DNA from: an uncultured Paracoccaceae bacterium | GTDB taxonomy: Bacteria > Pseudomonadota > Alphaproteobacteria > Rhodobacterales > Rhodobacteraceae | Direction: 5' to 3' | DNA: 64,000 nucleotides | Assembly: GCA_947497065.1 (NCBI GenBank) | Contig: CANMEQ010000002.1 | Span: forward strand, 554,029 to 618,028 | Shown here: piece after piece, positions 40,245-61,479 of the stretch | Layout: every line of letters starts with the position of its first letter | Numbering within the stretch: the first letter of the stretch is position 1 | The notes under the pieces: model-generated | Told to the model about the DNA's origin: nothing | The model's input: only the letters and a program-made list of their open reading frames with translations | Databases searched by the model: none | Program-made: the position numbers and the translations under genes

Positions 40245-41447
40245 ATGATTATGACGACACCCGAGTGCAAGGCTCGGGCCGGGGAAGCTGTGTCTGAACA
40301 GGCGAACCCGGCCAGCGAATTGAAGTCCGCGATGGCGGGCTTTGTGAGCGATTTCAAACACTTCACGACTGACATTCAAATTAAGTTGCAACAGCAGGAT
40401 GACCGCATGACCAAACTTGACCGTAAATCTTTGATGATGGGCGCACGCCCTGCACTGGCCGCAGCAGCATCTGCTGAAGCCCCGCACCAGAAGGCGTTTG
40501 AAGACTATCTGCGCTCTGGCGATGATGATGCGCTTCGTGGTTTAGACATGGAGGGCAAATCCATGTCCACGGCTGTTGCGGCGGATGGCGGCTATTTGGT
40601 TGATCCGCAAACCTCTGACACAGTTCAATCGGTTCTGGCTGCTACGGCGTCTGTGCGTGCGATTGCCAATGTGGTGAACGTTGAGGCCACGTCTTACGAT
40701 GTGCTGATCGATCACACGGAGTTGGGCGCTGGTTGGGCCACTGAGACAGGATCTGCGGCTGAGACTGGCACGCCAGTTATCGACCGGATCACCATTCCGT
40801 TGCACGAGCTGTCAGCATTGCCGAAGGCATCGCAACGTTTGTTGGATGATAGTGCGTTCAACATCGATGAGTGGCTGGCGGGCCGTATTGCGGATAAGTT
40901 TGCGCGCTCTGAAGCGGCTGCATTTGTGAACGGCGATGGTGTGGACAAGCCGACGGGCTTTTTGACAGCACCGGCTGTGGACAATGATGTTTGGGCCTGG
41001 GGCAATCTTGGCTATGTGGTGACCGGTGTCGATGGTGATTTCGACGGTGCCGATGCGTTGATCGATTTGGTCTATGCGCTGGGCGCGGAATACCGTGCAA
41101 ACGGGACGTTTGTGATGAACTCCAAGACGGCAGGCGCCGTGCGCAAGTTGAAAGACAACGATGGCCGTTTCTTGTGGTCTGACGGTTTGACGGCGGGTGA
41201 GCCTGCGCGTTTGCTGGGCTATGCGGTGCTGATCGCCGAGGACATGCCGGACATCGCATCTGACGCGACGCCGATTGCATTTGGTGATTTTGGTGCGGGC
41301 TACACCGTGGCGGAACGCCCTGATCTGCGCGTGTTGCGTGACCCGTTCAGCGCCAAGCCGCATGTTCTGTTCTATGCGACCAAACGCGTGGGCGGTGCGG
41401 TGTCTGATTACGCGGCCATCAAGCTTTTGAAATTCGGCACTGCGTAA
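40245..41447 (+). CDS. GTA gp5-like HK97 family major capsid protein
   Basis: N-terminal coiled delta-like region, VAADGGYLVDPQTSDTVQSVL, FVNGDGVDKPTGFLTAPAV, RPDLRVLRDPFSAKPHVLFYATKRVGG. Confidence 0.95.
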   Translation: MIMTTPECKARAGEAVSEQANPASELKSAMAGFVSDFKHFTTDIQIKLQQQDDRMTKLDRKSLMMGARPALAAAASAEAPHQKAFEDYLRSGDDDALRGLDMEGKSMSTAVAADGGYLVDPQTSDTVQSVLAATASVRAIANVVNVEATSYDVLIDHTELGAGWATETGSAAETGTPVIDRITIPLHELSALPKASQRLLDDSAFNIDEWLAGRIADKFARSEAAAFVNGDGVDKPTGFLTAPAVDNDVWAWGNLGYVVTGVDGDFDGADALIDLVYALGAEYRANGTFVMNSKTAGAVRKLKDNDGRFLWSDGLTAGEPARLLGYAVLIAEDMPDIASDATPIAFGDFGAGYTVAERPDLRVLRDPFSAKPHVLFYATKRVGGAVSDYAAIKLLKFGTA

Positions 41448-41624
41448 GCGGGGTTGATCGGAACGGTTCGCCTTAACGGGCGGGCCGGGTCCGGGCGCGT
41501 GCGAGACGTGAGGTCACCTTGCGTTGGCCAGCTGCTTCCTTCCGTCCGAGCAATGCGGGGAGCACGCGCCCGGTTCTATCACAGGTTTGGCGGACCAAAA
41601 TATGACCGTTTTCGGAGTTATTCC

Positions 41625-42224
41625 ATGATGTTGATTGAAGAGACCACAGTGCCAGCAGGGGCTTTGCCTGTGGCCGTGTTTAAAGAACACTTGCGCCTTG
41701 GAACAGGCTTTGCCGATGACGGTTTGCAAGACGGGTTGATCGAGAGTTTTTTGCGGTCGGCGATGGCCGCTGTGGAGGCGCGCACGGGCAAGGCATTGAT
41801 CGAACGCACATTTAGCTGGACGGTGTCGCGCTGGCGGGGGACGGACACGCAGACGTTGCCGATTGGACCGGTGAGTGCCGTTGTCTCGGTTACGCTTGCT
41901 GATCGGGCTGGCGGCGAGGAATTGGTGGATGCGGAGCGCTATGTGCTGTGCCCCGACATGCAGCGCCCGATGGTGAAATCCGTATCGGGCAGCTTACCAA
42001 CGATCCCTGTGGCGGGATCTGCGAAGGTGGAGATGCTGGCGGGCTTTGGGCCTGAGTGGAGCGATTTACCTGCCGATCTGGCGCAGGCTGTCATGATGCT
42101 GGCTGCGCATTATTACGAATATCGCCATGAGGTTCAGTATGACGGTGGGTGCATGCCCTTTGGCGTGAGTGCGTTGATTGAGCGGTACCGGACCCTGCGG
42201 ATTTCAGGGGGAGGTGTGGCATGA
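41625..42224 (+). CDS. GTA gp6-like head-tail connector protein
   Basis: MMLIEETTVPAGALPVAVFKEHLRLGTGF, typical phage gp6-like adaptor; ORF opens further upstream at 41454 but the leader reading looks non-coding. Confidence 0.88.
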   Translation: MMLIEETTVPAGALPVAVFKEHLRLGTGFADDGLQDGLIESFLRSAMAAVEARTGKALIERTFSWTVSRWRGTDTQTLPIGPVSAVVSVTLADRAGGEELVDAERYVLCPDMQRPMVKSVSGSLPTIPVAGSAKVEMLAGFGPEWSDLPADLAQAVMMLAAHYYEYRHEVQYDGGCMPFGVSALIERYRTLRISGGGVA

Positions 42225-42966: not shown

Positions 42967-43016
42967 TCGGGTCGCTTAGAAATTACAGTTTTTCAAACCC
43001 TTACGGAGTATTCGAT

Positions 43017-60096: not shown

Positions 60097-61479
60097 TTAG
60101 GTCCCACAGAACGTCTGGCGGACCTTTTGCGCCTCAGTTGGCGGGCGCATAAATTCAGGTGCAGGCTCAAACGGCGCGCTGACCGCAGATAAGAGCGCAT
60201 GAAACGGCGCGTAATCGCCATCTGTGGCGGCGCCAATCGCCTGTTCAATCATATGGGTGCGTGGGATTACCTTTGGGTTCGTCGACCTCCACAAGGCGTC
60301 ATCAGGGTTTGCCGCACGCCATTTGCCGTGCCAGTCCGGCAGGGACGTGGCGGTTTGATCGAGGTCTGCAAAAGTTTTGGTGAAATCCATTTGTGAATGG
60401 GCCATTTGCGTCAACAGATCCTGCGCCAAGGCATATGTGCCGTCACCGTCACCGGCACCAAGCCCCAGCTTCGCGGCGAACTCTGCCTGCCATTGGGTTT
60501 GATAGGCCGCAGGGAAACGGTTGATGATTTCGGTGAAACGCTCGATCGCCTCATCTTGATCCGGCATTATCGGAACAAGTGCGGTGGCGAATTGTGCCAA
60601 ATTCCAGTGGGTAACAGAGGGCTGATTGGAATAGGCATAGCGCCCCTGATAGTCGATTGAGCTGAACACCGTATCCGGGTGGTAGACATCCATGAAAGCG
60701 CAAGGACCATAATCGATGGTTTCGCCCGCGATTTGAACGTTGTCAGTGTTCATCACCCCGTGAATAAAACCATGGGCCATCCATTTCGCAATTAGGCTGG
60801 CCTGCCGCGCCAGCACCGCGTCTAACAGGCCCGCAGGTCCGTCTGCTTCGGGGTAATGGCGCGCGATTGTGTAGTCAGTCAGCGCCTGAAGCGCGTCTTT
60901 ATCTCCACGTGCGGCAAAAAACTGGAACGTCCCGACGCGGATGTGGGAGGCCGCAACACGTGTCAGCACGGCGCCGGGCAGGGGGCCTTGTTCACGCAAG
61001 ACCGGATCGCCGGTTGTTACGGCTGCCAACGCGCGGGTGGTCGGGATGCCAAGCGCGTGCATCGCGCAGGACATTATATATTCACGGATCACGGGACCGA
61101 CCCAGGCCCGCCCGTCGCCACTGCGCGAATAGGGCGTTCGCCCCGCACCTTTGAGCTGCAGGTCGACCCGTCCGACTGGACTGTCGATCTCACCTAGATG
61201 CACGGCGCGCCCATCCCCTAGCTGCGGCGAGAATCCACCAAATTGATGACCCGCGTAAACTTGGGCGAAGGGGCGCGCCGTGTCCGGCACATCGTTACCC
61301 GAAAATAGCGCTGCGGCCCCTGTGTCGGTCATCTGCGCGGTGTCGAGGCCCAGTTGGTCCGCCAACGCATGGTTGAACACAATCAACGCCGGGTCGCTGA
61401 CAGGGGTTGGTGCCTGTTGCGTGTAGAACCGATCCGGCAGGGTGAGATAGGTGGTGTCAAAGGGCAGGTGCAGCGGCAT
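60097..61479 (-). CDS. selO: Protein adenylyltransferase SelO (YdiU/UPF0061)
   Basis: YAGHQFGGFSPQLGDGRAVHLGE, LQLKGAGRTPYSRSGDGRAWVGPVIREYIMSCAMHALGIPTTRALAAV, HGVMNTDNVQIAGETIDYGPCAFMD. Confidence 0.96.
   Translation of the reverse strand: MPLHLPFDTTYLTLPDRFYTQQAPTPVSDPALIVFNHALADQLGLDTAQMTDTGAAALFSGNDVPDTARPFAQVYAGHQFGGFSPQLGDGRAVHLGEIDSPVGRVDLQLKGAGRTPYSRSGDGRAWVGPVIREYIMSCAMHALGIPTTRALAAVTTGDPVLREQGPLPGAVLTRVAASHIRVGTFQFFAARGDKDALQALTDYTIARHYPEADGPAGLLDAVLARQASLIAKWMAHGFIHGVMNTDNVQIAGETIDYGPCAFMDVYHPDTVFSSIDYQGRYAYSNQPSVTHWNLAQFATALVPIMPDQDEAIERFTEIINRFPAAYQTQWQAEFAAKLGLGAGDGDGTYALAQDLLTQMAHSQMDFTKTFADLDQTATSLPDWHGKWRAANPDDALWRSTNPKVIPRTHMIEQAIGAATDGDYAPFHALLSAVSAPFEPAPEFMRPPTEAQKVRQTFCGT

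Follow-up and report, generated by a model that had tools for sequence, protein, structure and literature searches.

Gene transfer agents (GTAs) are one of the important routes by which Rhodobacteraceae exchange genes, and we know of no explanation for how a single late operon gives about twelve capsid subunits for each adaptor subunit. In the GTA particle a T=3 capsid that lacks five hexamers is combined with a dodecameric adaptor (PMC7296036), and the copies of the two proteins per particle stand at about 145 to 12. In the locus described here the two genes are neighbours.

The gap between the capsid gene and gp6

The window analysed, a stretch of 64,000 nucleotides from an uncultured Paracoccaceae bacterium, contains a GTA cluster of the Rhodobacteraceae type in which terminase, portal, protease, capsid, gp6 connector and further head-tail genes were recognised by their Pfam domains, together with a GTA TIM-barrel protein (also Pfam). 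The major capsid gene (g5; 40245-41447, + strand; Phage_capsid, 294.6 bits) ends 177 nt before the start of gp6, the head-tail connector (adaptor) gene (41625-42224, + strand; Phage_connect_1), whose start-codon position is kept in relatives. Across 237 related loci the length of this gap ranged from 123 to 231 nt. The ribosome-binding site (RBS) of gp6 is CGGAG (41613-41617, + strand), and at the corresponding position in 102 genus-level loci CGGAG was found in 72 and TGGAG in 17. The same two forms were favoured over AGGAG at the RBS of the tail tube gene gp9, both in the window (43002-43016) and in relatives, unlike the portal gene.

The preliminary description of this DNA had read the gap as non-coding. 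In the window an open frame does run from a TTG at 41454 through into gp6, but in-frame stop codons lie upstream of the gp6 ATG in 71 of the 102 genus-level gaps, and the gap is therefore non-coding, as proposed. The same description had drawn attention to a perfect 12-bp inverted repeat at 41491-41502 and 41562-41573; the coordinates and the perfect complementarity were both right, with 59 nt between the arms. When the 177-nt gap was shuffled 2000 times with its dinucleotides preserved, no perfect inverted repeat of at least 12 bp arose (11 bp was reached in 0.45% of the shuffles), and perfect 12-bp repeats with a spacer of up to 100 nt occur at only four places in the whole window. Another perfect 12-bp inverted repeat (CACGGCGCGCCC) is present at 61201-61212 and 61271-61282, with a spacer of about 58 nt.

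Covariation and anatomy of the hairpins

Comparison with relatives showed that the 12-bp repeat forms the outer stem, P1, of a larger feature than the one first described, a conserved RNA hairpin here called H2. H2 occupies 41491-41573 (+ strand; covariance model score 84.5 bits) and is present as a single copy in the genome. In P1 the strand at 41491-41502 pairs with that at 41562-41573; an internal loop, mostly on the 5' side, leads to the 10-bp stem P2 (41517-41526 with 41551-41560, all on the + strand). Above P2 lies an apical part (41527-41550, + strand) made up in the window of the bulge GCCAGCUG, a weak stem P3 (CUU/GAG) and the loop CCUUCCGUCC. This pyrimidine-rich part is nearly invariant in 99 sequences, reading UCYAGCUG-CUY-CCYUCCGUCC-GAG, or UCYAGCUG-CUC-CCCUCCGUCC-GAG as a consensus, with the bulge UCYAGCUG and the loop CCYUCCGUCC on either side of the first strand of P3; the same alignment supports P3 weakly.

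A second hairpin, H1 (stem P0), lies just behind the capsid stop codon at 41464-41487 (+ strand), where the ribosome leaves the capsid gene. It has 10 bp in the window and its sequence is variable, but a hairpin that abuts P1 was found there in 98 loci, with a median of 12 bp; the median distance between the capsid stop and its start was 12 nt, the window having 16 nt. The folding energy of the whole gap was unremarkable (z = -0.38); the H2 element alone gave z = -2.2 and H1 alone z = -3.1, and by itself the whole-gap value would have overlooked the feature.

Of 30 capsid-gp6 gaps taken from the window's genome and from related ones, 29 share a core close to GTTGTCYAGCTGCTYCC(Y)TCCGTCCGAGCAAY, enclosed by a stem that varies in sequence in both arms. 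In a MAFFT alignment of 25 sequences, which was not fitted to the structure, 97.9% of the cells were paired and double changes were seen at 18 of 25 pairs, with none of 500 shuffles as good; sliding one partner by 1-3 columns destroyed the pairing. For 99 hits, mostly one per genus, in an alignment made by the covariance model and so fitted to the structure, 93.9% of cells were paired and double changes occurred at 22 of 25 pairs, including 12/12 in P1 and 9/10 in P2, the double-change cells numbering 317 against 92 in shuffles. An unguided mutual-information scan over all columns of this fitted alignment placed P1 and P2 pairs in the top eleven positions. Paired cells held 331 G-U against 31 A-C combinations, and this excess indicates that the selected molecule is the RNA of the + (sense) strand. 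H2 is thus, with near certainty, a conserved structured RNA. The RNA structure between the capsid and connector genes that had been suggested from the window alone is strongly supported, since the conservation and the covariation among relatives by which it was proposed to be judged were both found.

Of the smaller self-complementary pieces noted earlier between the arms, one (ggtcacc) is part of a possible alternative hairpin in the genus of the window, and the other (ttggccagctgc) reaches across the P2 end and the conserved bulge. The alternative hairpin (GACGUGAGG/CCUUGCGUU; 41505-41525, + strand) excludes P2, appears in the minimum free energy fold and is present in the window's genus and one relative. 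Its cells were paired at 92.9%, compared with 35-59% when the partner was slid, but no covariation above that of shuffles was detected for it. In the window's genus the strand that precedes P2 could, on the folding model, pair with the 5' arm of P2 as a possible two-state switch.

Distribution of H2 and loci that lack it

With the covariance model, 101 of the 199 family genomes gave a hit, nearly all of them from different genera; one of these hits is probably false. A class sample of 289 genomes, searched under strict filters, yielded none outside the family. Carriers include Rhodobacter capsulatus, Ruegeria, Salipiger, Sulfitobacter, Roseovarius and Celeribacter. H2 was found once per genome, with the exception of one draft genome that had two copies, and 102 of the 103 hit loci lay between a GTA capsid gene and gp6. 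The remaining hit (L397, genome G166) was taken as false, its capsid gene being on another contig, and two hits in Sinomonas (L217 and L236, 22-31 bits) that were accompanied by neither capsid nor gp6 were taken as chance. The many copies per genome of a dispersed REP-like repeat were not seen, nearly every relative having one copy. BLASTN searches against phages and plasmids returned only chance matches. Pattern hits in IMG/VR were nearly all flanked by a GTA capsid gene and gp6, many of them on contigs of about 13-14 kb (loci L090-L209), and from their gene content these 'viral' contigs are taken to be GTA clusters that were classed as viruses, not free phages.

A GTA capsid gene was present in 154 of the 199 family genomes, 101 with and 53 without a hit to the element; among the 199, no genome that lacked the capsid gene had a hit. 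A GTA locus can thus do without H2, as the 53 capsid-bearing genomes without a hit show. In one relative (L079, genome G015) the capsid gene is interrupted by three in-frame stops, yet an intact RNA element scored 85.5 bits there; the GTA of this genome has perhaps been broken recently.

At loci without a model hit H1 was usually kept, and H2 was either lost (gaps of roughly 59-110 nt) or replaced by a divergent second hairpin, which at some of these loci still carries CUCCG. In five such gaps (L071, L074, L412, L414 and L418) a small gene of about 95 aa takes the place of H2, and the two of these that were scanned matched Pfam Gp77 (podophage GP4 fiber-tail adaptor protein; E about 1e-15). 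Three HK97-type phages (L438, L440 and L441; MW202777, OP947159 and CU468217) have a single GC-rich hairpin directly 3' of the capsid gene that matches H1 in position and shape, whereas H2 was absent from the four phage loci examined. A hairpin adjoining the capsid gene may thus be a general device for capsid mRNA. The presence of H1 in many relatives that lack H2, together with the single hairpins of distant phages, suggests that H1 is the older and more general part and H2 a later, family-specific addition, the order of events seeming the likeliest from these comparisons; the resolution of the gp6 tree was too poor for gains and losses to be counted.

No match to Rfam 15 was found over the element, at E values up to 1, in the window and 12 related loci, and the weak hits elsewhere in L260 and L331 were far below the gathering scores. 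No report of H2 was found in the literature searched, the scope of which took in few subscription papers. We rate H2 as an undescribed RNA family of the intercistronic cis-acting kind.

A possible role in the capsid to adaptor ratio

Judged by their position and by precedent, the two hairpins may form an intercistronic cis-acting RNA in the GTA late mRNA that helps to set the ratio of capsid to adaptor, a reading that we put forward tentatively, at a little short of an even chance. H1 and H2 would act on the relative expression of the two proteins after transcription. H1, aided by H2, would block decay in the 3'-5' direction, such that the capsid segment of the mRNA outlived the rest, as with the puf hairpins, and the loop of H2 would be contacted by a trans-acting factor, be it an RNase, an RNA-binding protein or a second RNA, which made this step specific or adjustable.

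In the puf operon a complex ratio of about 1:14 is obtained through differential stability of mRNA segments, for which a hairpin stabilising the 3' end of the pufBA mRNA is needed (PMC10253847), and there is further precedent in Rhodobacter for stabilisation of mRNA by a puf intercistronic hairpin (PMC7509114). The puf operon of R. capsulatus and the GTA cluster belong to the same bacterial group, and each has a strong hairpin, not followed by a U-tract, between a much-needed upstream and a less-needed downstream gene of one operon. H1 has the puf-type position directly behind the upstream cistron, co-transcription being assumed from gene order. The GTA gap differs by the addition of H2, with its nearly invariant loop, and in that its effect on mRNA stability is a prediction.

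No clear U-tract follows either hairpin, the number of T in the next 8 nt being 0.7 for H1 and 2.15 (a slight excess) for P1, and no promoter-like site was found in the gap; protection or processing thus fits better than termination or re-initiation. These figures disfavour the partial intrinsic terminator that had been one of the original suggestions, whereas a separation of capsid expression from that of the connector genes by H1 and H2 would fit both position and precedent. In the linker behind H2, which is not AU-rich, no RNase E site stands out. Protection of the puf type, however, needs no conserved loop sequence, and the ratio model does not by itself account for the loop of H2.

Alternative explanations

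The YUCCG of the H2 loop is complementary to the CGGAG of the gp6 RBS, and the portal gene mostly has AGGAG instead. The element could therefore control translation in cis, the loop pairing with the RBS as a pseudoknot that lowers or gates translation of gp6. YGGAG is indeed commoner at gp6 where the element is present (89/102) than where it is absent (21/34), and the persistence of CUCCG in hairpins at some divergent element-less loci points the same way. Yet more than half of the element-less loci keep CGGAG at gp6, and on phylogenetically independent pairs, a comparison of low power, RBS type was not associated with H2. Co-evolution of the two partners finds little purchase in a loop that hardly varies; gp9 also has CGGAG though no such element precedes it, and within the cluster the gp6 RBS region is not the best target of the loop. 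We consider this explanation unlikely.

It is somewhat more doubtful that H2, with or without H1, is excised from the GTA mRNA as an sRNA whose anti-SD-like loop binds other mRNAs, although processing within the gap, or release of a small RNA from it, is possible, as suggested at the outset. In the CcsR or cuckoo sRNAs of alphaproteobacteria, too, a hairpin from a non-coding mRNA segment presents an anti-SD-like loop that is CU-rich, with the motif CCUCCUCCC. The H2 hairpin is stable and its loop also CU-rich, but the loop consensus is different, H2 is a single-copy element within an operon for which no terminator of its own was found, and none of the window ORFs examined next to it was a DUF1127 gene. 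It is common in Rhodobacter for RNase E or III to process sRNAs out of UTRs (PMC8625941), and the CcsR sRNAs are processed from the 3' UTR of an mRNA (PMC10253847). H2, however, was never found away from the capsid-gp6 junction and has neither its own promoter nor a U-tract terminator. The one site in the cluster that recurred as the best match lies about 3.1 kb downstream, near the start of gp12, and is probably just a purine-rich RBS; no other conserved trans target was found there. The idea that a paper on the sRNAs of Ruegeria pomeroyi reports a GTA sRNA was set aside, its text containing no mention of GTA or gene transfer.

In antitermination of the put/nut type the signals lie close to the promoter, whereas the element lies in mid-operon, about 4.8 kb behind the start of the terminase gene; this argues, by position only, against hairpins that act on RNA polymerase as a partial terminator, an antitermination signal or an elongation signal under control of the GafA/GafZ type. 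The GTA cluster of Caulobacter does contain inverted-repeat terminators that are overcome by GafZ (PMC11150451), and these too are in a non-coding stretch. They lie behind the first gene and not behind the capsid gene, however, and terGTA consists of three 150-bp direct repeats, whereas H2 is a single-copy covarying RNA. With no clear U-tracts, and a terminator scan of the gap that found nothing, action on the polymerase appears improbable.

Equally improbable is that H2 is the recognition site of a dedicated RNA-binding factor of the GTA or its host, which might be the capsid or some other GTA protein in an autogenous role, perhaps with P2 and the 41505-41525 fold as two states in the window's genus. 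If true, it would be a new RNA-protein switch coupling particle assembly to expression of the late operon.

A signal at the level of DNA (a packaging site, recombination site or cruciform), part of the preliminary description, would agree with the palindromic arms and their strong conservation, but it is made very improbable by the tenfold excess of G-U over A-C, by arms that change in sequence while keeping their pairing and by the single copy per genome, at this place only. That there is no real feature, the repeat being due to chance or gp6 starting upstream in a coding region, would accord with the open frame and the whole-gap z value and is refuted, to practical certainty, by the stops in relatives, the covariation and the conserved start codon and RBS of gp6.

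Significance

The preferred reading is that H1 and H2 may help to set the capsid to adaptor ratio. A covarying RNA lies at exactly the capsid-adaptor junction in about 100 genera, including the model organism R. capsulatus, where it offers a ready target for mutation. It shows selection at work on part of the non-coding RNA of a domesticated phage, a point of relevance to the question whether GTAs are maintained functions or decaying prophages.
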